Part shown: positions 4,593-60,163 of the stretch, piece by piece
Position numbering within the stretch: the stretch's first letter is position 1
Layout: every line of letters begins with the position of its first letter
DNA from: Linanthus parryae
Lineage: Eukaryota > Streptophyta > Magnoliopsida > Ericales > Polemoniaceae
Assembly: GCA_023055425.1 (NCBI GenBank)
Contig: JALGPY010000005.1
Span: 82,377,495 to 82,441,494 of the forward strand
DNA: 64,000 bases
Reading direction: 5' to 3'
The notes under the pieces: generated by a model
Seen by the model: only the letters and a program-made list of their open reading frames with translations
The model's database searches: none
Told to the model about the DNA's origin: nothing
Program-made: the position numbers and the translations under genes

Positions 4593-6022
4593 TGTTGAAA
4601 TAGATGCCCTAGAGGCAATCTTATTTAGTATGAACATTATTTTGGCTAGAATAATCATTGTATTATTTATGGAGGTATTTAATATAATGAAGTCCTTAGA
4701 TTACAATGTGTTGTTTATCTTAATATTCCTAGTCGTTTATATTGATTAACAGGACGATCACCTATAGACTAGTATGTGGGTCAATTGATATGGGGATATC
4801 AAGTCTAGCACATGGGCATGCATTAGGGGTAATGGCATACTGGATTGACCCATCCACGAGAAGGCAACATACATGTTATGTAAGAGTCACAAGCGCTTCT
4901 TGTTGTGACAATGGTATTGTGGTCCTTAGACTTGAAGTCACTAGATACTCTAGTTGTGGATTATTGTGTTTTGTTATCGTCAAACGCTACACCGTGAGTG
5001 GGTAGCAATAAAGGTGTTAATCGGACACAATAGGAAGCAAGCTTAGAGATGGTAGTGATGTAGAAAGGATTTGTCCCTCCTACATTACGGGATCAAATAT
5101 AAGTGGCCACTCGAGGGTTAGTGCTTATAGAATGTCTGGCCAGACTCAGATAAATCAATATAGGATAATGATATTATCTGCAAGGATATTACTATTCCTT
5201 GGATCGAGAAAATTTGGATTGGATATACGAGTGTGACTTGTATGTCTCGTGTCCAGTTCGGATATGGAGACAAAGGGATAATGCAATACGGTAAAATTGT
5301 TCGCAAGGTTTGTTGGATTACTGACTATTTCTACTAGTTGGGTGACATTGATGTATTGCTAGACACCGCTATATGTTAGTAATTGTTACTACCTACTAAG
5401 TAGAAACCTATGGGGTCACACACCCTAGGGACTAAACCGGACTTGGGAATTAATTAATGTAATTAATTAAATAGAAGGATCAATATGCAACCACAAGCAA
5501 ACTTAGTAGGACTAATTTGCAAAGTGGACTAATCTGTGTATGGATATGATTAGTATTGGGGCTATTATGTAGTTAATAAGGAGTTATTAACTATATAAAG
5601 GGAACACATAGCTTATTTTCTCATAAGTATCATAATTGTTATAACATTAGAGAGAGAAACAAAGCAAGGAGAGATCCAAGATAAGGAGGCCGAAACCCCC
5701 CCCCCTCCGCCCCCCTCCCCCCGCGTCCGCCACTCCCTCTTGTCGTCGGCCTCGTGAGGTGCGGCCTTGGGTGCTTCTTTTGCGTGATCTTCTTTCTTCC
5801 TCCTTCTTTCCTAGCTAGAACAAGGTGTGAGAAGGATCTGGAGCAATCCTAGGCGTGGACGTGGACACTATTTCATGCGAAGTCATCAAGGAGACAAACT
5901 AAGGTACGCATAAATGTTTTCCCTTACCATCATTATGTGGTCTAGTCATCTGATCCTTGGAGGGTCTTGAACCGAATCAATTATTGTTTATTCCGCTTCA
6001 TAATCCGTATCAAAACCCTACA
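4593..6022 (+). mobile_element. Solo LTR (Angela-like Copia)
   Basis: 1430-bp LTR starting TGTTGAAATAGATGCC and ending AAAACCCTACA. It is flanked by the 5-bp target duplication GCGTG (4588-4592 and 6023-6027) and has no internal region, so it is a solo LTR left by recombination. It sits inside a Gypsy pol: the words before and after join into the normal RNase H to integrase linker (LREKVMR then MHGDG). It is homologous to, and inverted relative to, the LTR at 1365-2776. A C-rich tract lies near 5696-5722. Confidence 0.92.
5592..5599 (+). promoter_or_regulatory. LTR TATA box
   Basis: TATATAAA at the position matching the TATA box of the inverted sister LTR. The solo LTR could in principle still drive transcription rightward. 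Confidence 0.55.
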
Positions 6023-7250
6023 GCGTGATATGCATGGTGATGGCTTGAACGAGCATTTAATATGTTACAAGACTATTTCTGCCATTATAGAGAGTTTTGC
6101 TGACCCCAATTGAAGTGGGACGTCGTAACCATTGTTGGTAAGTGCTACGTGTGCCATGTTTCTAAGGGACAAGTCCAGAATATAGGACTTTATACGCCAT
6201 TTCCAGTTCCCAAGGGCATTTCTTCTATTGATTTTGTGTTCCGACTTCCCCGATCTCAACAAGGAGTCGATTTTTTCTTTTTGGTGGTTGATCGTTTTTC
6301 AAAAACGGCCCGTTTAGTTCCTTGTCGAAAGACTGATGATGGGACTAACATCGCAAGGTTGTTATTTCATGAGGTAATTCATTTGCATGTAGCGCATGTT
6401 TCCATCACATTATAACGTGATACAAATTTTCTGAGTCATTTTTTGGTTACTTAATGGAGGATATTTGACACTTCACTCAACTGCACTACCACTGCTTACC
6501 CAAAAACTGATCGGCAGATCGATGTTACATATTGGCCTTGGGGAACCTTGTTAGGTGAATTTGTGGAGATAAGCCCAAGTAGTGAGATGTTGCTTTACCT
6601 CAGGCGGAGTTCGCATACAGTAGTGTAGTACATTCTTCCCATGGTAGGTTTCCATTTTGCAGTTGTATGTATTACTCTGCCTCGTCATACTATGGATTTT
6701 TGTAGCTCCCAAATGGTGTCAAGGGTAGTGTTTCTGCAGAAAGGGTTGCTAAGAAAGTGCAGAAAGTTCATGAGGAAGTTCACAAAGTTTAGAGGTTAAG
6801 AATGTGAAGTACAGGGAAGTTTCAAACAAGCATCGACGTTCTTTCAAAGATTTTCCAGGAAGGAGACTCGGTCATGGTGCTCTTGTGGAAGGAGAGGGCA
6901 TCGTGGGTGCGTATAGAAGCTAAAGCTGCGAACGTGTGGGTCATACAATATTTTGAGGGCATAAATGAATATTCATATTTAGTGTACCTGCCTAGAGGCA
7001 TGGGTATTTCACTGATCTTCAACGTTTTTGGCTTGTTGGAGTTTCATGGTGATGCGCCTATTCATCCAGATGATTGCTAAAAGGATACTGATACAGGACC
7101 AAAGTAATATGAAGACCTAAATAATTGGATATTCTTGATTCTTAGGTTTGTCCATTCGCGATGGACCCAAGCCTATTATGAGCAGACTTGCTAAACAAAC
7201 ATGCCTCCCTTTTAAGGTAGGGAGCACCGGCCATTTTTTATGTTTCGGCA
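6023..7250 (+). pseudogene. Degenerate Ty3/Gypsy integrase and pol 3' end
   Basis: Continuation of the pol at 2950-4592. The integrase zinc/core region is legible: CYVCHVSKGQVQN, GLYTPFPVPKGI, IDFVFRLPRSQQGVDF, VVDRFSKTARLVPC (6145-6330), then the TDGQ-like region near 6500. Further on, GDSVMVLLWKER, YLPRGMGISLIFNV and HPDDC (6865-7080) match the usual C-terminal integrase extension. There are several stops and frameshifts. The final 170 bases are 3' untranslated, with no clear polypurine tract. Confidence 0.8.
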
Positions 7251-9692: not shown

Positions 9693-11024
9693 AAACCGCC
9701 CCAGCCCCGATGTCTTCGCACCAAGACAAGTTGTCTTCGCACCAAGACAAGTTGTCTTCGCACCAAGACAAGTTGTCTTCGCAAGACGACTCTTCGCAAG
9801 ACGACTCTTCGCTAGACGACTCTTTGCAAGAAGACATAATGTCTTCGCAAGAAGACACTGACAGTATCCAATTTTCGCGTCTTCGTTCTTCTTCCTTGCT
9901 TCGCCAATTGCTTCTCCGTTTCGTCCAACTTCTAGCTAGGTGCTTGAATCACCAAAACATAACAAAGAACCTACTAAGAATCAGCGCCTCGACCAGCTTC
10001 TTCAATTATTGGATGAGTTCAGACATTTCGAGTTCCAACGAGAACGTGAACGTAGAGCCATTCTTGAATTGGGTCTCAGAGGTTAGGTTCCTCAACATTG
10101 TGGAAGTTCCATAAAGTAAGATGGTCCAACTAGTGGCTTTTAAGTTGAAAGGCGATGCGGTTGTTTTGTGGGATAAGTTGTAGAGCGATCGAACCAGGAT
10201 GGGGAAAACTCCATTCCGTACTTGGAGGAGGATGAAGCAGCTACTGCTAGCCAGATGTTTGCTACTAGATAATTAGTAGTACATGTTCATGATATACCGA
10301 TACTATGCACACTATAACCGATATGTTGCATAATACAACTATGAGTTTACGCGATTGTCAGGCTATAACCGATTGACAAACCGCCCCAGCCCCGATGTCT
10401 TCGCACGAAGACATTTGTCTTCGCACCAAGACAAGTTGTCTTCGCAAGACGACTCTTCGCTAGACGACTCTTTGCAAGAAGACATAATGTCTTCGCAAGA
10501 AGACACTGACAGTATCCAATTTTCGCGTCTTCGTTCTTCTTCCTTGCTTCGCCAATTGCTTCGCCGTTTCGTCCAACTTCTAGCTAGGTGCTTGAATCAC
10601 CAAAACATAACAAAGAACCTACTAAGAATCAGCGCCTCGACCAGCTTCTTCAATTATTGGATGAGTTCAGACATTTCGAGTTCCAACGAGAACGTGAACG
10701 TAGAGCCATTCTTGAATTGGGTCTCAGAGGTTAGGTTCCTCAACATTGTGGAAGTTCCATAAAGTAAGATGGTCCGACTAGTGGCTTTTAAGTTGAAAGG
10801 CGATGCGGTTGTTTTGTGGGATAAGTTGTAGAGCGATCGAACCAGGATGGGGAAAACTCCATTCCGTACTTGGAGGAGGATGAAGCAGCTACTGCTAGCC
10901 AGATGTTTGCTACTAGATAATTAGTAGTACATGTTCATGATATACCGATACTATGCACACTATAACCGATATGTTGCATAATACAACTATGAGTTTACGC
11001 GATTGTCAGGCCATAACCGATTGA
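9693..11024 (+). repeat. Tandem duplication spanning LTR and gag
   Basis: Copy 1 (9693-10376) and copy 2 (10378-11024) are direct repeats. Each starts inside the U3 of the compact LTR element and ends in the flanking Gypsy gag remnant, so the duplication arose after that insertion. I see only about three substitutions outside the 21-bp repeat block. Copy 2 is shorter mainly because it keeps one 21-bp unit instead of three. Long frames running through each copy (about 9644-10114 and 10355-10762) are chance LTR-gag fusions. Confidence 0.9.
9711..9773 (-). repeat. Three 21-bp tandem repeats in LTR U3
   Basis: Three exact copies of a 21-bp unit that contains GTCTTCGCACCAAGAC, itself a near-palindrome, followed by shorter GTCTTCGCAAGACGAC and CTCTTCGC variants to about 9860. 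The partner LTR has fewer and decayed copies. Confidence 0.85.
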
Positions 11025-43912: not shown

Positions 43913-44032
43913 AGGTTGGGTCTGTAATATCTCGTACAATAATTGCTTGTGTGACCGAATTTTAATTTAATTAATGACGTTTCTTGCTAAAATACTCCCA
44001 TTTATTTGTAAAGAACTCAAGATTTAACGTAC

Positions 44033-44236
44033 TGTTATGAAATATTGGGCTAGGTTATTGGTGAATATCTACCACATGTTGTAAGCCCATTGTATATTGT
44101 TATTAGCCCATTATCCCACCCTAATGCCTATATAAGGAGGCCTAGGGTTGGAGAATAATACACCTCTCACTACTATTCTCCCGGCACATCTTGTCTCTCT
44201 TATTTCTCATCTCCCGTCTTCTCTTGATTTACAACA
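44033..44236 (+). repeat. 5' LTR of the hairpin element
   Basis: 204 bp, TGTTATGAAATATTGG...TTTACAACA, with TATATAA at 44130-44136. Confidence 0.93.
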
Positions 44237-44238
44237 CG

Positions 44239-44248
44239 TTATCAGCAC
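44239..44248 (+). other. Primer-binding site, hairpin element
   Basis: TTATCAGCAC two bases after the 5' LTR, the primer site used by many plant Copia elements. Confidence 0.75.
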
Positions 44249-45112
44249 ACTTTCTCTATGATCTAAGAGACAAGAGAGATTTGCAAAACGACAACAAGTA
44301 TGACATTGATTAATGTTTTTCTTACATATTGAGAAAGAACAAGGAGACGAAAAATTCATTTTTCGGTCTTACTTGTTCACACAGAATCGATTCAGTACTA
44401 TATGTTCAATCTTAAAATACAGTACGTTTGTTACTGAACAATTACAAGTTAGGCAGAGTATTCGTTTTTCTTTAACTTTTTCAAAGAAAAATTGGACCTT
44501 CAAATTTTCAGAGAAACGTCCAAGTACACGAAAAAAACCAATGATATAGGGTTTTGGACCAAAAGTCACTGAGTGTATATGTTCGTTAATTATAGATCTA
44601 GAACAATTTTTGGGAATACTCATTGAATCAGCAATTTAATTTCGATAAACTAATCCGCAGTTTGTGCACATGCAAATTTTGTAGAGTCATAATAATATTA
44701 TCCGACTGACCTAGAGCATGATTTGTTATGATTTGTTTTCAATTTAATTAATGCCCAGTTTAATACCTTTGTTTGGACCAACTGATCCAAGGAGTACTTG
44801 ATATTAGTATTGTCTTCATAGGAGACATTGAATATGCATATTATTATATGGTGGTTGTTAAGTCGTGAGCCATCTAATACCAAGTTAACAACCAGTTGAC
44901 CAATTTTTTTTTTTTTTTTCAATCCAAGTTTGTAGTATTATGTTAATGGTCAGTTTTGTTTGGAAAGGTATGAACACAACCATTGGTGGATGGTTCAAAG
45001 TTATTATTATACTTTTATATTATTGAGTTACTACTTTTTACCCTAAGTCACTGAAAAATTTATTTTCGCTTAACCTGAATATAAAGCTATTAGTGCTCTT
45101 ACAAAAGCATTG

Positions 45113-48100
45113 ATCCATACCTGAAGTTATGGATTACATGAAGTTTTGACAGTAACATGATATTATGCTATTTTTATGACATGAAGTCATGAAACTCTAT
45201 TAGCCTATATTCCTCAAAGAGAAGTTTTTTTCATCGATCCTCCTGAAGAGGCTTGAAATCGGTGACAATATATCATGTCTAAGTTATTAGTATGCTTACA
45301 ATATCATGTTTTCACACCTGGCATTGTGAGCTACAAGAAGCTATGATTGTAACCTGAAGTTACACACTTTTTTTGTATGACCTGAAGTCATATTAGATCT
45401 CCGGAATAGATATCTAGAACGTCTAATACACTTGTTATTATCAATCCTCCTGAAGAGGTTTTGAATCTTGACCACATATTGGTCCAAGCTAATGATGCAA
45501 TTATGCTTTCACACATGTAGTTGTGAATTCCATGATTATCTAATCGTAACCTGAAGTTGCGATACAACTTTTTTATCACCTAAAGTGATATCGTATTACC
45601 ATAAAATACCATGAAGAGATATTAACGTTCTCGTTATTAACCTCCCGAAGAGGTCTTGTTCCCTTTTTTTAATTTATTTTATTTTACGCGCATTATGTAC
45701 TACAATTTTGCTCTTTACCTAATATGGATCAAAAACGAAACTCCAGAAGAGATTCCGTAGTGCCTATTGACACACATGTCTATCCATGTAATTTGTTCTT
45801 GAAGTAACAAATTACATGAAATCACTCATAACCCGTAGTTATGACTGGCATAACCTGAAGTTATGAAATTTTATAAATGGTGATCTCCTGCAGAGACCAC
45901 CTCAATTCAAATAATGATCCACCCTCCTGAAGAGGACTTCTTTTTCTTTCTTTTTACTTTTACGTAATTTTTTTGGGTACACTCTTGATCTTTATGGATT
46001 ATTGATCAAAGAGAAGAGATTTTACGGTCCATTATTTATATTGGACATAAGGGGCATAAGTTTGTATCGTACTTGGAGTTACGAATCACATGATGTATAG
46101 ATCATAACCTGCAGTTATGACACCTCTCGTGAAGAAATATCTAGAAATTTAATAATTGATCAATCCCCCCGAAGAGCATCCAGAAGATGTTCTCATTCCA
46201 TGATTTTTTACCGGACATACATACGCGTAAAATCGTTTTCATACCAGAAGTTATGAAAAATATGAAGACACTTATAACATAATGTTATAAAGTTAGATCT
46301 CCTTGAAGAGAGAATCTACAGTCATCGAACCAGAAGTTTCGATTGCATATTTGTTCCTGCTAATTTACATTTTTTTGTAGTTTTATTCATATTCTGCTAT
46401 TGTTGTTGTTATCTTAAAGGAAGAATACAATGATCAATAACTAGCGGATTGATATTAAATGAAGAGACTTGTGTACTATACAATGGAAATTAAAAGCAAT
46501 TGATATTGCTAGCGGATGTAACAGAAATATTTCACACCAGAAGTTGTGAAAGTTAGTTACAATTGTCAATAACTTGAAGTTATGACATTGTTCATGACCA
46601 ACTAATTCGACCCCATTCCCTTCAGTGAATGGTAAGTGCATTCCAGAAAAGATTCACTTGTTATATCCAGTCGAATTCCACATGACTATAGAGACGGTCA
46701 TGGTTATGAATATGAAGATGTCTAAAAGAGATTAAAGTCGGGAAGAAGATTTTTATTTTGCATAAAAAACCTCCGGAAGAAGTTCTTAGTCCATATTAAT
46801 ATTTGTTGGACATATTTAATGACTCATATCATGCAGTCATGAGGTATTTTATGACCCGAAGTCATAAAATTTTGATAGAGTTGAAAGGATATTTTCTTAG
46901 ATCCATTGAACCTGAAGTTTAATTCAGAAAATAAACACTTCTAGAAAAGGCTAGAATCCTGACCGTGTACTAGAAGTACAACTCATTATGTTGCCATAAG
47001 CCACTCATATGAAAGGCTCGAGCGATTATGAATGGATGAATATGAGCTTGTTATTTTGATCATCGCAAAGATGAGTCATCCTCTTTCAAGATGATTTTTA
47101 ATTATGGCCTCTCCATGGTATGGGTATCCTATCATTGAATGATAGACTCTAAAAGCAGTTGAGATTGATATATGCGGTATTTTATGTCAGAAGTTGTGAA
47201 ATACATGTTATGCCCAAGAGTTATATCATATTTTTATATCTCAAAGATATATCGTATTATCAAATGGACACCCTGTATGGTAATGCGAAAGATTTAATGA
47301 TTAACATTATGATAAGTTGGTCCCATGATGGACTGTAGAGCATTTCCAGAAGCAAATGCCTGCTCTACAACATTTGTGTTTTTAGTGACGCATTCCCTGA
47401 AGTGAACCAATCTATGGTGTCACAATAATCGATGCAGTCATGGACTTAGTTGCAATGATATGCACGCCCATTGTCATATATTGAGGTGCATCTTTATGAT
47501 TTCCCTGGAAGAGAAAGACTGCATAAAAATCGGGAGAGAAAATAAATGCATCAATAGTTGTAAGAAGAGCATCCCCTATGAACTTCATTGCATTATGGAG
47601 AATTATTTATTGGCTTATTTGAGAAGCTTCTAGCTCCTTAACAGATTTAGAGCAATGACTCCATGAATTAAATTTTAAGTAATTTTGAGAAAAAGGGCAT
47701 TCTCTACGAAGATATCATTTTGAGGGAAAGAATATGGCTTGATGGGTTACATCGCCAAACAAACGCGTAGGTGATGTGTTGTGTTCTTGTATCAATTCAC
47801 AAGAGAATATTCAAAAATTGTAATCAAGCCCCTGAAGTGGTTTTGATGTTATATTGCTATTATGATGAATATTTGTTAATGACGTAGTCTCTCAAAATAT
47901 CCAACCAAATTGACCCACATTCCCAGAAGTGAATGTCATTTTTTTTGTGTGGTCCAAATACTCCACACGATAGTGGACTAAGTTATGGTTATTGATAGAT
48001 ATAGTCCTTAAAAATCTCTAAAAGAGATTGAGCTATATCAATCAACCCCTGCAGTGGTTTGTAAGTTATAAATCATATAGAAATATCTAAATATTATATG

Positions 48101-49957
48101 ATGCCCCCCAAAGAGATTTTTTTAGAAGCATTTATGCTTGATGGAGGATATAATGATCCAATTTTGAGAAACTTTATTGATTGATACTAGTCTCAGCAGG
48201 ATTATGTTTGTTTTGGGATTCTTTCTACCTATTGCGTTCCCCGGAGATGACGACCAAATCAACTCATTAGATTTCATTGAAGGAAGTTCCACGCATAACA
48301 TATTTCTCAATGAATAATAACTCATCTCATGGTAGTCGGGACTAGAGTTTATAAGAATATGAAAATTGGAGCTGTGACATATCATATCTCATAGAGAGAT
48401 AAATTGCATGACATGAATTTAATGTCTGCTTGTTTTCTTTTATGCTAGAAGCATAAATTGTGAAGTTATTACGGTCATGAGTTTCACGTCATGAGGGGGA
48501 GATAGACCATATTGCATGACGTGAACTTTATTTTTATCTCATTTACATCCAGCTATACTGGTGTAATGTTAAAAGTTCCATTATAGACTGAAGTCTAATT
48601 GACGAATGAGTATTTGGTTTGAAAGCATGCTATTAGTATGTAAGGATTGCTTGTTCAATTATTATGATCTTCCAGAAGAAGATTTAGAAAGCATCCAAAT
48701 CTTATGCAATTTAAAGTCTCAAATTGAGAACACAAGATATGACAAATTCTCATGAGTTATGAGAAAATAAAGGATATCATCAACATTAGATCAAAGCCAA
48801 CGTTGGAAAACAAATATCCCTTGAAGAGGCATGGAGCTCTTGGAGAAGCTAAGGTACCTAATTTGAGATTAATCTCATGATCTTATGGTTAATGATACAT
48901 TAATTGAAAAAGTGCTTGAAATCATATATGATTTCCATTTACCACCTGGAGTGGATGAAGTTGACTTAAAATATTTGGCCATGACAAAAGTCAACGAATA
49001 CATGGACAAGAGGATACAAACTCTGCAGTTTTATCAATGCATGGAGTATAATTACAAGTACCTAGAATTCTTGTGATGCTTGAAGCATCAATGTCCATAT
49101 TGAATTAGTGTGTGTAAATATACAGGAGCTCTGCAGCTAATGCATAGAGCATATTGGGGAAGTATTTTGAAGAACTTTAGATGCCCATAGAATCCATGTT
49201 CATATATAACAACATATTCAAATGTCCGCACCCTAATGGTTGAATCCGTGAGACTATTGAAAGAGAAATATGCGGTAGTGCAAGTGATGCCTAAATGACA
49301 TCAATTTTTCTCATGGTTATAATTATGGTTATAACCCACAAATCCTCTATTTTTTAAGAGTGATTGTGATATTTTGTTTAGTCTAGAAGACTACGAATAT
49401 AAAAGTAACTAGTTACACAAAACGATCGTACGAATCACTTTATGTAAAAATCATGGAGGTTGATACCCATGAAAGATATCTAGTTGCCTGAAGCAACCAA
49501 AAGTGTACACTCGCGAGTAATCCAGGTGCATTTGCATTATGTCACATATCACCTGACATGATGACTGTTGATAAATAGTTTTTGTTTAATATCTCTACAT
49601 GGGTCATGTAGTATTGCATCATATACTTGATGTTTTTGTAGGTCTATTCACAAATGGCTAGACTTTGTTTTTGTCGTGAATTTATATTACAGGTCCTAAG
49701 CCCCCAATGGCTAGTGACGGTATACTTCAAAGCAAGCATTGAAGAAAGTGGAATGGATAAAAATCAATTGATGCTATGAAGAGGAGGGGGGGGGGGGTTC
49801 AAGGTTCAATTCTGAAACTATGAGGCGTTGTACCTTCGCTGAGGTTTTTATCCCACGTGATTTTTCCTAGCAAGATTTTTTATGAGGCACGCAGCTAAAT
49901 GTGAGTTCCTGAGGAATGCCATCTTCAATGAAAGTCAACAAAGAATCCAGAAGATTC
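45113..49957 (+). repeat. Array of short hairpins with conserved CCTGAAG-type loop
   Basis: At least 39 inverted repeats of the form arm-loop-complementary arm. Loops are CTGAA, CAGAA, CCGAA or similar when a C-G pair closes them, or CCTGAAGT/CCAGAAGT when it does not. Examples, arm then position: ATCCATA 45113-45134; TGTAAC 45348-45364; TATGAC 45376-45392; TTCACA 45508-45527; TCGTAAC 45544-45562 (one G-T); TATCAC 45574-45590; ACCTC 45640-45654; 13-bp CATGTAATTTGTT 45785-45818; TCATAAC 45826-45844 and 46102-46120; AGAGCATC 46173-46193; TTTTCATA 46236-46259; TTTCACA 46530-46551; CCATTC 46613-46632; 10-bp ATTTTATGAC 46846-46870; GCATTT 47340-47359; ACATTC 47917-47936; ATCTTC 48667-48683; TGATGC 49074-49090. 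Density is highest before 46632. Confidence 0.9.
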
Positions 49958-50167
49958 GTTATGACAAGGAGAATGTTTATTTTTGGTCTGTACTCTTTTT
50001 CCTTAGCCAAAGTTTTTGTCCCACTGGATTTTACTTGGTAAGGTTTTAACGATGCAGACGATACAAGTCTTCAAGCACCTATGTACTCTTTTTTCTTCGT
50101 TAGAGATTTTGTCCCGCCGAATTTTTCTTTACAAGGTTTTAACGAGGCATCTTTATGGTGAATATTC

Positions 50168-50176
50168 AAGGGGGAG
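50168..50176 (+). other. Polypurine tract, hairpin element
   Basis: AAGGGGGAG directly before the 3' LTR. Confidence 0.8.
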
Positions 50177-50373
50177 TGTTATGAAATATTGGGCTAGGTT
50201 ATTGGTGAATATCCACGACATGTTGTAAGTCCATTGTATATTGTTATTAGCCCATTAGTCCACCCTAATGCCTATATAAGGAGGCTTAGGGTTGGAGAAT
50301 AATACACCTCTCACTACTATTCTCCCTACACATCTTGTCTCTCTTATTTCCCGTCTTCTCTCGATTTACAACA
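50177..50373 (+). repeat. 3' LTR of the hairpin element
   Basis: 197 bp, close match to the 5' LTR, followed by the CGTAC target duplication. Confidence 0.93.
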
Positions 50374-50378
50374 CGTAC

Positions 50379-51300
50379 ATATATATACTTATACATTTGT
50401 ATGTGTGTCTATTTATTAAAAGAAAGAAAAGGGATGGTACCAAGCAATTTGGGTCCAAGGTTTAGAATCTCATGTTTTGCATTGTATAATGGTACCATGT
50501 ACAATAAAGAAAATAACATTTTTTGTAGAGGAAACCTAATACCAAGTTACCATAATTTTATATTTGACATGTATATGGTTGATTATATACTATAATTATC
50601 ATGGAACATTGATTATTTATCAAGCTTCATTTGTCATAACTACATATCTTCTAAGTTGTTTAGACATATACAAATGCAAATTTTATCACTGGTCAAGACT
50701 TTAAGTTTGAGAAAGTTTATTTATTTTTGAGAAGATTGAGAAAGTGTATTAATAATGTTACCCATATGCATTATTACTATTTTCCATTATTAGCAATATT
50801 TTTTTATGGATAAATACAATATTGATCGCAATCTAGCTTCCGCGAAAAGATCAATTTCGAAAAAAAGATGTAACTTCACAACTAAGTTGAGAAAGAAGAC
50901 ACTTGGCCTGATCGTAAAGATCCTTTCATGAGAAGATTCTTTTTCACAAACCTATTGAAAGAAGATTCTTTTTCTAGCTACATTCAGCTCCTTGCTTGGC
51001 TGCTAAATCACTTAAATATGGTGTTTGCTTTGTCAACTTTTATTAGGTGTCTTTGGTATAGAGAAACCCCTTAAGGAGGGTTTTACTTTTAAAAAGTAAT
51101 AAGCTAGTCCTAGGCTACCTCGTGGCTTACGTTTTCTACAACATCTGAGCCTATAAATAGAAACTAACTTTCACTACTTAATCTCATTCTAAAAACAGTA
51201 AGTTCACTATCAAAGGTTAGATCTTAGGTATTGCTAGTAGAACGAAAGCATCATTAGCTTTATTCACATACTTTCTCCACCTTATTCAAGAACAGCCATC
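50379..51300. other. Intergenic, no gene seen
   Basis: AT-rich DNA between the hairpin element and the LINE tail. No supported feature. Confidence 0.5.
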
Positions 51301-51556: not shown

Positions 51557-52330
51557 TTATTTGATCTTTCCAGCACTTCCACCCCGCATCAACATCATTG
51601 CTACCAGGCAATCAAGCTCCAAGTGGACTTTTGCAAACCCCATTTCAGCTCCAAGTGCTAGGCCGCCGTTGGCCGCTGCTAATTCTGACATTAAGGGAGA
51701 CCTTTTCCGGTGCAATCTCCTCTGACGAGTTTCTAAAAAGTGGCCGTCATCATCCCTTAGAACAGAGCCCACCCCAGTGGTCAGTGAGAATTCCCTCCAT
51801 GTTGCATCCGCATTTACTTTGAAGAAACCTACTTTAGTAAGACTCCACTTGTCATTGGTTTCTCCTGTAACTTGACGATGGTCTCCGAAATGTCCAGAGA
51901 CTTGAGCTTCCCTGTACCAAGTCAGTAAATCTCTGGTGTGAGTTGCTAAAGAAATCGGATCCCTTCCTTTACTGTTGAATACCACATCATTCCTATTCGT
52001 CCAAATTTCCCACACGGACATCACAAAGAGTTCACACTGTTTCTTGCCTTCCCTTCCAAGACAGCTTCTCATCATCTCTCTGATATCATTGCTATGGCCT
52101 GAATCGAATCCTTCCCCCAACATTGATTTCCAGACAAGCATTGAGTGAGAAAACTGACAAAATAATTGCGTTGTGGTCTCCATTTCTTGGTCACAAAGCT
52201 TGCATCCGGGTTGTACATTAACTCCACGCCTTCGCAGTTTTTTAGCAACATGAAGCGAAGAGTGTAACAGACGCCTAAAAGGCATAATAAATTTCTTTGG
52301 AATCTTTAAATCCCATAATTTATTCACCAA
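51557..52330 (-). pseudogene. LINE ORF2 C-terminus: zinc-binding and RNase H
   Basis: A 257-codon open frame. Residues about 5-110 match the zf-RVT region (LWDLKIPKKF, CKLCDQEMETTTQLFCQF) followed by VWEIWTNRNDVVF. Residues about 165-257 form an RNase H-like domain with the acidic residues in VNADATW, MSELAAANGGL and LELDCLVAM. This is the end of the split LINE polyprotein. It is open but separated from the rest by frameshifts. Confidence 0.85.
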
Positions 52331-52632
52331 TTCTAGGCCACTCGAGCTATCTGAAGAAGAGGGTGGTGGAGCCGAGAGATTTCTCTATGCTTTATAGCCC
52401 ATTTTTACAGAGTATATTCCATCTGTCGAGTGTGTCCAGTAAAACAAATCTTGCTCTTCTTGACAAACAATTAGAACACGTAAAACTTCATACACATCAA
52501 TTGGCCAAAACTTTTTCTGACCTTCTCCTCATCCCACTGTCCTGTATTTGCATTGATAAGCTCGTTAACTTCCATCTCCTCAGAACTAGGCAGACATATA
52601 GTGAATAACTTGAAAGTATTTGGCCTCTTTAA

Positions 52633-53635: not shown

Positions 53636-55331
53636 TGATAACTCTCTATTAGAGTTATATTTCTTGCACATTTTATAATGTTTTGCATATTTCCGGGGTT
53701 GATAATCTTAGATTTACACTATGAATGTTGAGGAAACATAGAAGAATGAGCTTTATGCACTTTATTGTTAGCCCGGGCGTTTCAATTCATATTTCGATGT
53801 TATTTGTCAAATATAATCGCTTTTTATGGTATTTCATGTTGTCTTGACAGGGACGGATGCTAAACGATAGCTAGGAGGCATGAAATGAACTTCGGAAATA
53901 AAGCAAGCTCAAGAGGAAGCAAGAGAAGCAAAGTTGGAAGAGCAAAAGTGACAAACCTTCACTATTTCAAGAGTATCTTGAGTTCTACAATGAATTTTGG
54001 AGTGATACTAGTGGAAAATGAAAGTATACTCAAAAATCTTTCCAACGATAGTTCACAGAGCTAAATCGGAGATCGGAGGAAGAAGTTAAGGCCCGTCGAA
54101 TTTGGAGCCAAAAAAATGGTAGGGAGGAGACTCTCTGCTGGTCGTACGACCAGTCTGAGTGTTCCTACGACCAGTCTGCTCACCAGCACGAAAATTTTGG
54201 GTTTTAATGCAATTTTTAACAAATTTTGGACGGGGAGTTCACTAGAGGGAACTAATATTCAACCTAGGGGACTACTCCAAGACATATTGACGTGAGAAGC
54301 AAGAGGATATTCACACAAGGAAGAAGACGAAGACGAGGAAGCTCCGATTGAGAGTTTGATTTGTTTTCTTCTTCCTCTATCAATCTGTTTATCGATAAAC
54401 TATCTTGTTTTACTAGCTTGAATAAGATTAGCTAGTTGTTTTGCTAGGCGTCTCTACGAGAGCCTAGGGTTTATGTAGACGGTTACACTTTTCCCGATTT
54501 AGACTTGTTTCATGCTTTTGATTGTGATTTATTGGATGAACGTTGATTTCATGAACTTGTTATTGAATCTGGTCTATTGACACGACTAGTTTATGATTTG
54601 ATAGTCATGAAAACTAGAATTTATTCGTAGTCATCTTCTTGCTTAATGTTTATATCTTTTCTTGTTACATGTTCTTGTTACGAGCTTAAACCTTAGTGTG
54701 AAAGGAGTGATCAACCGGACGTACTAACTAATTAGATGAGTGCACGACAATGACTCAACCAAATTGTGAAGAGAACCTGAACACAATCCCGAATCACCAA
54801 GACCTAAAATGATAAATGTTAGGATTGGCCTTAATGTGGGTAGATTCAGTAGGATTAGTTAGCTATTCCGTGAAACGGTGGGCCGACATGAACAGTTATC
54901 GTACCTGTAGATGACTTGCTAGAACGGAATAGTAGACAACATGAGACCGAGAGGAGATTGTAGTCAACCGAGACGTAAAATGACATGAGACCGATAGGAT
55001 AATGTTTATAGTCTATTACCCGGCTGAACTAGAATAGGATTGACTTGTTACATAGCTGAACCAAAATTTGTCTACAGCCATCGGTGATCTAGAGATCGCC
55101 TAGTTTCTATTTATTTGATTTAATCATTATAAAAAAATAAAAAAATATTAGCTTAGTTGTTATTTCAATTCTTAAATAAATCAAATCTTTCCTCCTGTAC
55201 CATACTCTAAATTAAGTAACTAATTAAATAGTCTCAAGTCTGTCCTCGTGGGATCGATAACTCGGGGTTGAAATACCACCCCTATATTACTTGACTGTGC
55301 ACTTGCGCATACGCGTTAAGAAATCGCGTCA
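53636..55331 (+). repeat. 5' LTR of the LINE-nested element
   Basis: 1696 bp, TGATAACTCTCTATTAGAG to AAATCGCGTCA. It contains the 16-bp palindrome CTGGTCGTACGACCAG (54138-54153) with a further ACGACCAGTCTG copy nearby. Confidence 0.9.
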
Positions 55332-55336
55332 AGTTT

Positions 55337-55352: not shown

Positions 55353-55448
55353 GGACAACGGTAGATTATTTAGTTAAAAGTTAGTTTAGAGTACTTTTCT
55401 TTCAGTTTAGTTTTATTTTGTTCTATTCTCTATCTCTGTGCTTCACGG

Positions 55449-56651
55449 GTGTCTTTTGAGTTTGTTTTCTCAGGACCACAAGAAGCAGGAGATTCTACTA
55501 AGCATGTGAAGCGAGGACTACTATTAAGGTCCCCCTACTGTTTCTACTGTCGGGGTAACCATGAAGAAGAAGACGCATGCATAGTTTCGTGCTCTCGATG
55601 CGACATTTATCATGACAATCGGGACCCATGTCGAGTTCATCCACCCCAGCTTCATCAGCATCAAGAGGATTCATCAGCGAGTATGGAAGAATGGCTTAGT
55701 ATTATGGAGGGAATCCAAGTGTGCACAAATTTTTTGTCCATAGTTGCACAACTACCACAAGAGGATTCAGCCACAGGCATGGGATACGTGAGGGAAATGA
55801 TGAAGAGGATAACGAATCGAGTAGATAAACTATCATCGGCAGGGGAATCAAGTGTTCCAGAGACACAAGAGGTGCCCTTTCCACATGACAGTGAGCCTCA
55901 AATTGAACCTTCATCATCACGGCCACAAGTGGAAGAAGTGATACCTGAGCTGAGCAAAGACTGCAGTATCCAGGAACCATTGGTGGACTCGGGCATTTAT
56001 GAGGATTCAGACTCTGATTCCGACTAGGGTGGACATGTGTGCCCAAGATGGGAGGACCTGCCGTATTGCGAGCCAAAACCGCAGGCGCCCTCACTTCCTT
56101 GGCATGAATGGGAAGAAACTGACATTGGAAGCATGTGGTGTGCTGATGACGAAGCTGATGAAACACCTGTTCCCATATCTATTGAGGTAAAATCCCCTAC
56201 TCATACTTTTGAAGAATTATCCATATCTCATATTAATCAAGTCTGTGATGAGTTGGAAAGACTTGTGTATGGAGATTCTTATGGGGAAGAGCATCATAAG
56301 AAACTTTCAACTTCTTGTTCTATTGGCTATTCTATTAACGATCCACACACCATAGTCAAGGAATTTGAAATCAACAAGTGTGTGGGTTTGGATAAATTGC
56401 ATGGGTCATTTGATGAGCATCTAGCACATAAGAGGTATTACTGGGATGAATTTATGGAAAATGATGCATGTGAGCCTAGTGTTACTTTGTGGAAGTTGAT
56501 CAAGAAGATAAATTGCAAGATGAAAAGAGTCAGCTTCTACAACTCTCCACCATTTTCACAACACATGGGAGCACTTGAAGTCATTGAAAAGAGATGGTGG
56601 AAGAAAAAGAAGTGGAGGGATAAATATGCCTCCACAATCTGTTTCGGTTGA
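55449..56651 (+). CDS. Gag-like protein with tandem CCHC motifs and one in-frame amber
   Basis: One frame of about 400 codons runs from 55449 to TGA at 56649-56651, broken only by TAG at 56025-56027. The frame is open upstream to a TAG at 55371 but has no ATG before 55683 (MEEWLSIMEG), so the start is unclear; 55449 is a GTG. Counting from there, Cys31, Cys34, His38, Cys44 and Cys48, Cys51, His55, Cys61 form two exact CX2CX3HX5C motifs. An acidic middle (EDSDSDSD) precedes the amber. The second half has CPRWEDLPYCE, acidic stretches, and a basic WWKKKKWRDKY end. It is the only ORF of a non-autonomous element. Whether the amber is read through or is a mutation is unknown. Confidence 0.6.
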
Positions 56652-58465: not shown

Positions 58466-60158
58466 TGATAACTCTCTATTAGAGTTATATTTCTTGCACA
58501 TTTTTAATGTTTTGCGTATTTCCCGGCTTGATAATCTTAGTTTTACACTATGAATGTTGAGGAAACATAGAAGAATGAGCTTTATGCACTTTATTGTTAG
58601 TCCGGGCGTTTCGATACATATTTCGATGTTATTTGTCATATTTAATCGCTTGGTATGGTTTCTTATGTTTTCTTGACAGGGACGGATGCTTAACGATAGC
58701 TAGGAGGCATGAAACGAACTTCGGAAACAAAGCAAGCTCAAGAGGAAGCAAGAGAAGCAAAGTTGGAAGAGCAAAAGTGACCAACCTTCACTATTTCAAG
58801 AGTATCTTGAGTTCTACAATGAATTTTGGAGTGAGGCTAGTGGAAAATGAAATTATACTCAAAGATCTTTCCAACGATAGGTCACATAGCTAAATCGGAG
58901 ATCGGAGGAAGAAGTTAAGGCCCGTCAAAGTTGGAGCCAAAAAGCTGGTAGGGAGGAGAATCTTTGCTGGTCGTACGACCAATCAGAGTGTTCCTACGAC
59001 CAGTCTGCTCAACAACACGCAAATTTTGGGTTTTAATGCAATTTTTAACAACTTTTGGACGGGGAGTTCACTGGTGGGAACTAATATTCGACCTAGGGGA
59101 CTACTCCAAGACATATTGACGTGAGAAGCAAGAGCACATTCACACAAGTAAGAAGACGAAGACGAGGAAGCTCCGATTGAGAGTTTAATTTCTTTTCTTC
59201 TTCCTCTATCAATCTCTTTATGGATTAACTATCTTGTTTTACTAGTTTGAATAAGATTAGCTAGTCGTTTTGGTAAGCGTCTCTACGAGAGCCTAGGGTT
59301 TATGTAGACGGTTACGCTCTTCCGGATTTAGACTTGTTTCATGCTTTTGATTATGATTTATTGGATGAACGTTGATTTCATGAACTTGTTATTGAATCTG
59401 GTCTATTGACACTACTAGTTTATGATTTGATAGTCATGAAATCTAGGGTTTATTCGTAGTCATCTTCTTGCTCAGTTTTAATATATTTTCTTGTTACATG
59501 TTCCTGTTCCGAGCTTAAAACTTAGTGTGAAAGGAGTGATCAACCGGACGTACTAGCTAATTAGATGAGTGCACGACAGTGACTCAACCTAATTGTGAAG
59601 AGAACCTGAACACAATCCCAAATCACCAAGACCGAAAAGGAGAAGTGTTAGGATTGGCCTTAGTGTGGGTAGATTCGGTAGGATTAGTTAGTTGTTCCGT
59701 GAAACGGTGGGCCGACAAGACCCGTTATCATACCAGTAGATGACCTGCTAGAACGGACCGGTAGACAACATGAGACCGAGAGGAGATTGTAGTCAACCGA
59801 GACGTAAAATGACATGAGACCGACAGGATAATGTCATAGTGTATTACCCGGCTGAACTAGAATAGGATTCCCGTGTTACATAGCTGAACCGGAATTCGTC
59901 TACAGCCCTAGGTGATCTAGAGATCGCCTAGGTTCTCTTTATTTGATTTATTCATTATAAAAAATACAAAAATGTTAGCTTTGTTGTTATTTCAATTCTT
60001 AAATCAATCAAATCTTTCCTCCTGTACCGTACTCTAAATTAAGTAACTAATTAAATAACCTCAAGTCTGTACTCGTGAGATTGATAAATCGGGGTTGAAA
60101 TACCACCCCTATGTTACTTGACCGTGCACTTGCGCATACACGTTAAGAAATCGCGTCA
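58466..60158 (+). repeat. 3' LTR of the LINE-nested element
   Basis: 1693 bp partner of 53636-55331, preceded by the purine-rich AAAAAGGTAGAGTGGAGT. The palindrome is kept near 58968-58983. Confidence 0.9.
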
Positions 60159-60163
60159 AATCA

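Follow-up and report, generated by a model that had tools for sequence, protein, structure and literature searches.

An LTR retrotransposon of Linanthus parryae without recognizable coding sequence and with an interior of hairpins that share one loop

What could maintain dozens of hairpins around a single loop inside a retroelement in which no protein is recognizable? The question is raised by a stretch of 64,000 nucleotides from Linanthus parryae (contig JALGPY010000005.1), referred to here as the window, which holds a complete LTR retrotransposon insertion at 44033–50373 with two LTRs that are 92% identical and a 5-bp target duplication. An earlier note on this DNA had described an element with intact LTR signals but no gag-pol, and the LTRs, target duplication and polypurine tract were all confirmed. 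The framework of the element is as follows.

44028–44032, no strand: target-site duplication CGTAC, left copy
44033–44236, plus strand: 5′ LTR, TG...CA, with TATATAAGG at 44129; K2P distance to the 3′ LTR 0.057
44237–44252, plus strand: presumed primer-binding site, CGTTATCAGCACAC.., directly abutting the 5′ LTR (from sequence)
49821–50149, plus strand: three diverged 68-bp direct repeats, just 5′ of the polypurine tract
50166–50176, plus strand: polypurine tract TCAAGGGGGAG, adjoining the 3′ LTR (from sequence)
50177–50373, plus strand: 3′ LTR
50374–50378, no strand: target-site duplication CGTAC, right copy

The sequence CGTTATCAGCACAC.. at the presumed primer-binding site does not seem to be complementary to the 3′ end of a tRNA in the usual manner. 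The lack of gag-pol was borne out by a Pfam scan with curated cut-offs, made in pieces and covering all 29 listed interior-overlapping frames of at least 45 residues: none of the 29, the longest of which has 88 residues, contains a Pfam family at cut-off. The matches were weak only, the best being to DUF1804 (E 0.022), which scored 15.1 bits where 29 are needed. A search for protein homologues of one 67-residue frame found none, a tRNA search was likewise negative, and no Rfam covariance model reached its gathering score in 44000–50400, where the sole match up to E 1 was V_IGR5 (25.8 bits against 75 required; E 0.95). Since there is no recognizable coding and the insertion is recent, its LTRs being still 92% identical, the element presumably transposed without proteins of its own.

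A TG..CA LTR pair, a target-site duplication and a polypurine tract without gag-pol are the marks of a non-autonomous LTR retrotransposon. The element is LARD-like, with an interior of one-loop hairpins. It resembles LARDs in having LTRs, a presumed primer-binding site, a polypurine tract and a large interior with no recognizable protein. LARD LTRs are kilobases long, whereas those here are only about 200 bp, and the accessible parts of LARD descriptions contain no interior of dozens of short one-loop hairpins. LARDs are further marked by a large core that lacks coding sequence and is conserved from copy to copy, and by conserved RNA structure; the covariation described below lies between duplicated units inside one copy, not between copies. 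Cassandra and other TRIMs are plant LTR elements that likewise lack autonomy and have predicted RNA structure, although their internal domains are almost entirely absent and in Cassandra the LTRs, with the 5S regions they contain, form the main stems. The 5-bp target duplication is compatible with the Copia superfamily; the scanned frames hold no coding remnant in which pol gene order or RT similarity could be read.

The hairpins had been reported as too numerous for chance, and the comparison proposed with that report confirms it. The core word C[CT][ACT]GAAG occurs 32 times in 44241–50170, and 25 of the 32 occurrences are flanked by perfect Watson–Crick arms of 4 bp or more, with a loop length of 5, 7 or 8. 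In 500 dinucleotide shuffles the mean was 0.04 hairpins and the maximum 1, while the word itself averaged 1.8 copies (maximum 10). Such hairpins arise from none of the 3 occurrences on the interior's minus strand and from 1 of the 21 on the plus strand elsewhere in the window. With the GAAG core alone (loops of 5 or 8), 26 of 64 occurrences have arms of at least 4 bp, 21 of at least 5 and 14 of at least 6, against means of 0.26, 0.07 and 0.02 in 300 shuffles; elsewhere there was 1 on the minus strand and 2 among 346 on the plus strand of the rest of the window. No other four-base core exceeded 4 hairpins with arms of at least 5 bp in the same two loop registers. The interior is AT-rich (A 0.324, T 0.337), as a chance or low-complexity artefact might require, but at most one hairpin in any of 500 shuffles against 25 refutes that explanation, and we regard its probability as negligible. 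When the plus strand of positions 1–59300 was divided into 5.93-kb chunks, a single further strong signal appeared beyond the element; it comes from short tandem repeats near 9711–9835, not from the nnGAA loop.

The exact numbers in the earlier note depend on how a hairpin is counted. Its total of at least 39 is reached with relaxed criteria (G–U pairs, one mismatch and near-cores allowed), which give 43 hairpins, some of them doubtful, but not by strict count; its 27 between 45113 and 46632 are matched by 23 relaxed hairpins plus 4 chosen by pairing, against 15 to 16 by strict count.

The shared loop is also recovered when hairpins are picked by pairing alone. Among 25 such hairpins (loop of 5, at least 6 Watson–Crick pairs, some overlapping), 17 have G at loop position 3, 16 have A at position 4 and 19 have A at position 5, and 17 pairing-chosen hairpins with a loop of 8 have the consensus C-C/T-A/T-G-A-A-G-T. 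The core C-C-W-G-A-A-G is a loop nnGAA closed by a C–G pair; in a second form a single T is added on its 3′ side. The 18 GAAG-core hairpins with a loop of 5 carry CTGAA (7), CAGAA (3), TAGAA (3), CCGAA (2), TTGAA (2) and ATGAA (1). The description of this core as near-constant holds for the shared loop and less well for its strictness, with CTGCA, CCGTA, CTAAA and CCTGGCAT also found on paired stems. Simple loop–loop dimerization is unlikely, because the CTGAA, CAGAA and CCGAA loops are not Watson–Crick self-complementary.

The densest hairpin region, 45084–46640, is a decayed tandem array whose units, each about 200 bp long, arose by tandem duplication, an origin that the first description had overlooked; the hairpins are therefore not mutually independent. 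The units and the hairpins beyond them, including the previously reported 13-bp stem, are listed below with matches to a sequence-only model of the unit.

45084–45280, plus strand: unit u1; hairpins 45113–45134, 45176–45190, 45239–45251
45281–45480, plus strand: unit u2; hairpins 45311–45330, 45348–45364, 45376–45392, 45446–45458
45478–45675, plus strand: unit u3; hairpins 45508–45527, 45543–45563, 45574–45590, 45640–45654
45785–45939, plus strand: unit u4; 13-bp stem 45785–45818, hairpins 45826–45844, 45849–45865, 45923–45935; model match 45799–45872 (E 2.4e-4)
46049–46193, plus strand: unit u5; hairpins 46067–46084, 46102–46120, 46177–46189; model match 46066–46127 (E 3.9e-8)
46229–46359, plus strand: unit u6; hairpins 46236–46259, 46272–46290, 46298–46313, 46324–46343; model match 46235–46291 (E 2.6e-4)
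46520–46640, plus strand: unit u7; hairpins 46530–46551, 46569–46583, 46613–46632; model match 46529–46599 (E 1.9e-6)
46846–46870, plus strand: 10-bp hairpin around CCGAA
46966–49957, plus strand: nine scattered GAAG-core hairpins, at 46966–46980, 47340–47359, 47917–47936, 48439–48457, 48667–48683, 49074–49090, 49379–49393, 49483–49497 and 49943–49957

The duplicated units allow compensatory change to be followed within one copy of the element. Six of the seven model matches with E < 1e-3 were aligned (alignment A4), the match at 45799–45872 being excluded because its hairpins are spaced differently; the rows at 46064 and 46527 begin two bases ahead of the model match. The other 56 of the 63 matches listed are weaker than 1e-3 and were unused. 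Two of them, at 54543 and 59372 (E 0.005 and 0.004), lie inside an LTR-like pair of another element and outscore the match at 46827 (E 0.009), so that matches at about this last level carry no weight. Across the six sequence-picked units 85 of 89 stem cells (95.5%) are paired, and both sides have changed in 6 of 18 pairs (10 cells); the cell count was reached in 0 of 500 shuffles and the pair count in 2, and every slid version of the alignment left at most 52% paired. The model itself had been built from u1–u3, which are also rows of this alignment, and u2 had supplied the structure. Without u2, 67 of 71 cells are paired and 6 of 18 pairs still differ on both sides; in the three units outside both model building and structure reading the figure is 34 of 36, against at most 19 of 36 in slid versions. 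In ordered comparisons, which are not independent of one another, Watson–Crick pairing is retained in 326 of 357 (91%) against 58% under independent change, and double changes number 62, where 7.4 would be expected. Further standard pair types are no more numerous (9) than in shuffles (9.3). Conservation is 75% in stems, 66% in loops and 45% in linkers.

The hairpins are far more frequent than chance allows, are a property of the element and have changed in compensating fashion from one duplicated unit to another, so that a paired structure with a common loop was maintained. The covariation and the conservation pattern argue for selection on the hairpins rather than for chance or snap-back copying. 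The latter, one of the origins suggested earlier, is disfavoured in that the both-side changes for the most part affect one pair at a time, in differing combinations, and do not rewrite whole tracts, and in that loops are conserved above linkers.

Folding gives a less directional picture. The folding energy lies well below that of shuffles (z −5.2; 857 nt, 20 shuffles), but folding of the antisense RNA is about equal or stronger (z −6.2), and neither strand is singled out. Non-Watson–Crick stem positions are G–T rather than A–C in 5 versus 3 cases for GAAG cores, and in 9 versus 5 with near-cores, no clear excess. The mean stem-pair probability in local folding exceeds 0.5 in only 18 of 26 strict hairpins, and in 4 of the 9 scattered ones. 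The hairpins would act in the plus-strand sense, a reading against which the antisense folding and the wobble counts are points.

These results bear on two further explanations. The stems themselves might matter as bulk structure, keeping small-RNA silencing, nucleases or ribosomes off, with the loop common mainly by descent. The low folding energy fits this, and tandem duplication would account for the shared sequence; however, loops are conserved above linkers (0.66 against 0.45), the motif recurs up to 49957 in places where the unit model has no match stronger than E 0.1, and many short fixed-loop hairpins would be a poor route to maximal structure. We think it rather improbable. Lower still, at a slim chance, we place mutational maintenance, in which template switching during replication or reverse transcription perfects quasi-palindromes without selection. 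It too predicts isolated both-side changes, and it suits stems that form about equally on the antisense strand and wobble pairs that are not clearly favoured, but it leaves unexplained the one common loop, its conservation above linkers and its confinement, within the window, to the present element.

How the RNA of a non-autonomous LTR element enters the particles of another element is, to our knowledge, largely an open question. Here a single RNA-binding protein would recognize the loop of one hairpin after another along the plus-strand transcript while tolerating different stems; our best guess is that an autonomous partner element supplies this protein as its Gag/nucleocapsid. Many weak sites would provide avidity, through which the particles of the partner could take up the element RNA, which would then be copied in trans. 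That the array offers multivalent docking sites for a partner Gag, enabling packaging and copying in trans, is a function suggested by the sequence pattern, and we hold it tentatively, at somewhat under an even chance. A shade more guardedly, the element may represent a class of coding-less plant retroelements in which dozens of hairpins with one common loop form a cis-acting array that captures a foreign Gag or a host RNA-binding protein by avidity. With equal caution, this class may be the retroelement counterpart of dispersed packaging signals, enlarged as units were duplicated and preserved through compensatory change.

In the dispersed packaging-signal model, as given in excerpts of PMC6281560, many stem-loops carry a common recognition motif. 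The interior likewise combines many hairpins, a shared loop and variable stems, and MS2-type signals in that source similarly share a motif among differing sequences; the likeness is one of hairpin pattern, and here the motif is another one and the carrier is a retroelement without gene products. For a plant satellite virus, the consulted part of PMC6475782 states that packaging signals proposed from in-vitro work played no discernible part in packaging in vivo, a result that by analogy would count against the Gag-packaging reading.

The same loop-specific array could instead be read by a host RNA-binding protein that stabilizes, tails, exports or localizes the transcript, which would thereby be protected or routed. 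The hairpin excess, covariation and conservation support this equally, and the available portion of PMC4053848 offers a close formal parallel and, for the Gag reading as well, a precedent for a loop recognized on a non-specific stem: the Smaug element, whose CNGGN loops are bound by the SAM-domain protein Smaug. In the sections seen of PMC11055085, an HBV and HCMV pentaloop recruits ZCCHC14–TENT4 and the RNA is stabilized. The present loops share with the CNGGN pentaloop (also that of the HBV PRE) the G at position 3 and the non-specific stem, but they are nnGAA: position 4 is G in just 3 of the 25 pairing-chosen hairpins (A in 16), and A in all 18 GAAG-core loop-5 hairpins, where the search word fixes it. 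The RNA is also of a different kind, and the HBV precedent, in the same sections, involves a single stem-loop. A host reader is on balance unlikely, if a serious contender.

Relatives were sought by pattern scans. Two patterns in viral_contigs (11 and 4 stretches) yielded no relative, the GAAG-hairpin counts in these 15 being at most 3 per strand (L012, read in part, is GC-rich); nor did one pattern in genome_contigs, where the assessment of the 28 stretches, 10 of them from Bradyrhizobium, relied solely on record titles, which are bacterial or archaeal. FaSt of Prunus was considered and is unrelated, being a Mutator-like MITE according to the part of PMC12071656 at hand. Open-access literature searches found no description of a comparable hairpin interior. 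An element with dozens of hairpins of one type and compensatory evolution visible in a single copy provides a specific RNA ligand to try against Gag and host proteins. It would also be an instance, among retroelements, of multivalent RNA signals in dispersed form; for at least one plant satellite virus that idea is contested (PMC6475782, in the part consulted).

The hairpins lie in the interior of a complete LTR retrotransposon insertion. The earlier note had described intact LTR signals, and both LTRs, the target duplication and the polypurine tract were located:

44028-44032 and 50374-50378, target duplication CGTAC
44033-44236, 5' LTR
50177-50373, 3' LTR, with the polypurine tract directly adjoining

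The LTRs share 92% identity over 207 aligned columns (K2P 0.057; 11 substitutions at 202 sites), which at the usual plant substitution rates of 0.7-1.3e-8 would date the insertion to about 2-4 million years ago. The element was also said to lack gag-pol, and a Pfam scan bore this out: 29 frames of 45 aa or more overlap the interior (the longest 88 aa), and none reached the cut-off of any family. Because the LTR divergence is small, gag-pol was probably already absent at insertion. The element is a LARD-like non-autonomous LTR retrotransposon. Directly 3' of the 5' LTR, the sequence CGTTATCAGCACAC (44237-44252) does not begin with TGG as usual primer sites do; its complement is one that we take to resemble a tRNA anticodon region, and priming may therefore be internal (from a half-tRNA). 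Just 5' of the polypurine tract, at 49821-50149, are three diverged direct repeats of 68 bp (TTTTTGTCCCACTGGATTTT...).

The scan proposed in the earlier note, for the core between complementary arms in comparison with dinucleotide shuffles, was decisive. Of the 32 copies of C[CT][ACT]GAAG in the interior, 25 sit between perfectly complementary arms of 4 bp or more, whereas 500 shuffles gave a mean of 0.04 hairpins and a maximum of 1. For the shorter word GAAG (n = 64), minimum arm lengths of 4, 5 and 6 bp leave 26, 21 and 14 copies, respectively; other four-base cores in the same registers give at most four hairpins each when the minimum is 5 bp. The loop consensus is also found in hairpins picked by pairing only. 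Among the 25 with a five-base loop, 17 have G at position 3, 16 have A at position 4 and 19 have A at position 5. The 17 with an eight-base loop have the consensus C(C/T)(A/T)GAAGT; this longer form can be read as the five-base form carrying an extra, bulged T on its 3' side. The arms are individual to each hairpin. Among 18 strict five-base-loop hairpins, for which own-arm pairing of 1.0 at positions 2-4 was the selection criterion, swapped arms pair in 0.21 to 0.36 at positions 2-10. For the 64 GAAG words, taken irrespective of pairing, the fractions paired at positions 2-4 are 0.50, 0.55 and 0.45 with a word's own arms and 0.30, 0.26 and 0.29 with swapped arms.

Local self-comparison revealed units at 45084, 45281 and 45478 (u1-u3). 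They recur about every 200 bp, and their aligned stretches are 68-69% identical. A sequence-only model built from these three matched further units:

45799, E 2.4e-4
46066, E 3.9e-8
46235, E 2.6e-4
46529, E 1.9e-6

Units u1-u3 each contain four aligned hairpins in identical order, and two model hairpins (h1 and h3) align in the units at 46066, 46235 and 46529. These matches and aligned hairpins mark the densest part (45084 to about 46640) as a tandem array that has decayed. Scattered hairpins continue to 49957 without clear unit homology.

Covariation was assessed in six units chosen by sequence and aligned without reference to structure. Pairing is kept in 85 of 89 cells, with both sides changed in 6 of 18 pairs (10 cells), and the covariation score was reached by none of 500 shuffles. 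Slid versions of the structure were 18 to 52% paired, a comparison biased in favour of the actual structure, which was taken from row u2; with this row left out, pairing holds in 67 of 71 cells, and the count of pairs that differ on both sides stays at 6 of 18. Three rows used neither for the model nor for the structure are paired in 34 of 36 cells. Further pair types show no excess (9 versus 9.3 in shuffles). In u1-u3 alone, both sides changed in 4 of 23 pairs, and pairing is lost in 3 of 69 cells. Watson-Crick pairs were retained in 91% of ordered comparisons (326/357, non-independent), against 58% under independent change. Identity in stems, loops and linkers is 0.75, 0.66 and 0.45 for six units and 0.775, 0.725 and 0.508 for three; because aligners anchor on conserved words, the stem and loop values are raised relative to those of linkers.

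A fixed loop, a free stem, many copies and kept pairing form the pattern that would be expected of a loop-reading protein needing only some stem. We predict that the hairpins are Gag-binding packaging sites, because the element would depend on proteins supplied in trans and LARDs and TRIMs are assumed to rely on autonomous partners (PMC7215508); dispersed packaging signals, as described in PMC6281560, offer a precedent for the pattern. Several points count against this reading. The antisense RNA folds about as well as the sense RNA, wobble pairs in the stems indicate no strand, local folding does not favour 8 of the 26 hairpins, and the packaging signals proposed for STNV-1 are reported in PMC6475782 to have no discernible significance in vivo. 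The first rival is that the loop is read by a host protein rather than by Gag. Further precedents for the pattern come from the Smaug element, with a CNGGN loop on a stem of no particular sequence (PMC4053848), and from the HBV pentaloop, a recruiter of ZCCHC14-TENT4 (PMC11055085). Rfam gave no match to the hairpin-array architecture, and searches of an open-access library listed no comparable one.

The 19-base unit pattern ATYRATCCTCCYGAAGAGG matched 28 stretches in a genome contig scan, of which 10 are from Bradyrhizobium and probably represent one shared gene. Elsewhere in the window, a second LTR-like pair on the same strand (53636-55332 and 58466-60159; 1697 bp, 92.9% identity) encloses long reading frames at 55374-56027 and 56028-56651 and is probably another LTR element. 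A minus-strand remnant at 51557-52384, with zf-RVT (E 1.3e-10) and RVT_3 (E 5.9e-9) domains, is probably a LINE. An inverted pair of about 1.4 kb (1364-2776 and 4593-6023) is 75% identical. Short tandem repeats of about 21 and 15 bp at 9711-9835 and 10396-10483, with a partly palindromic unit (TGTCTTCGCACCAAGACAAGT), sit in SSHQDKL-rich reading frames, and the block around them is duplicated at 96.7%.
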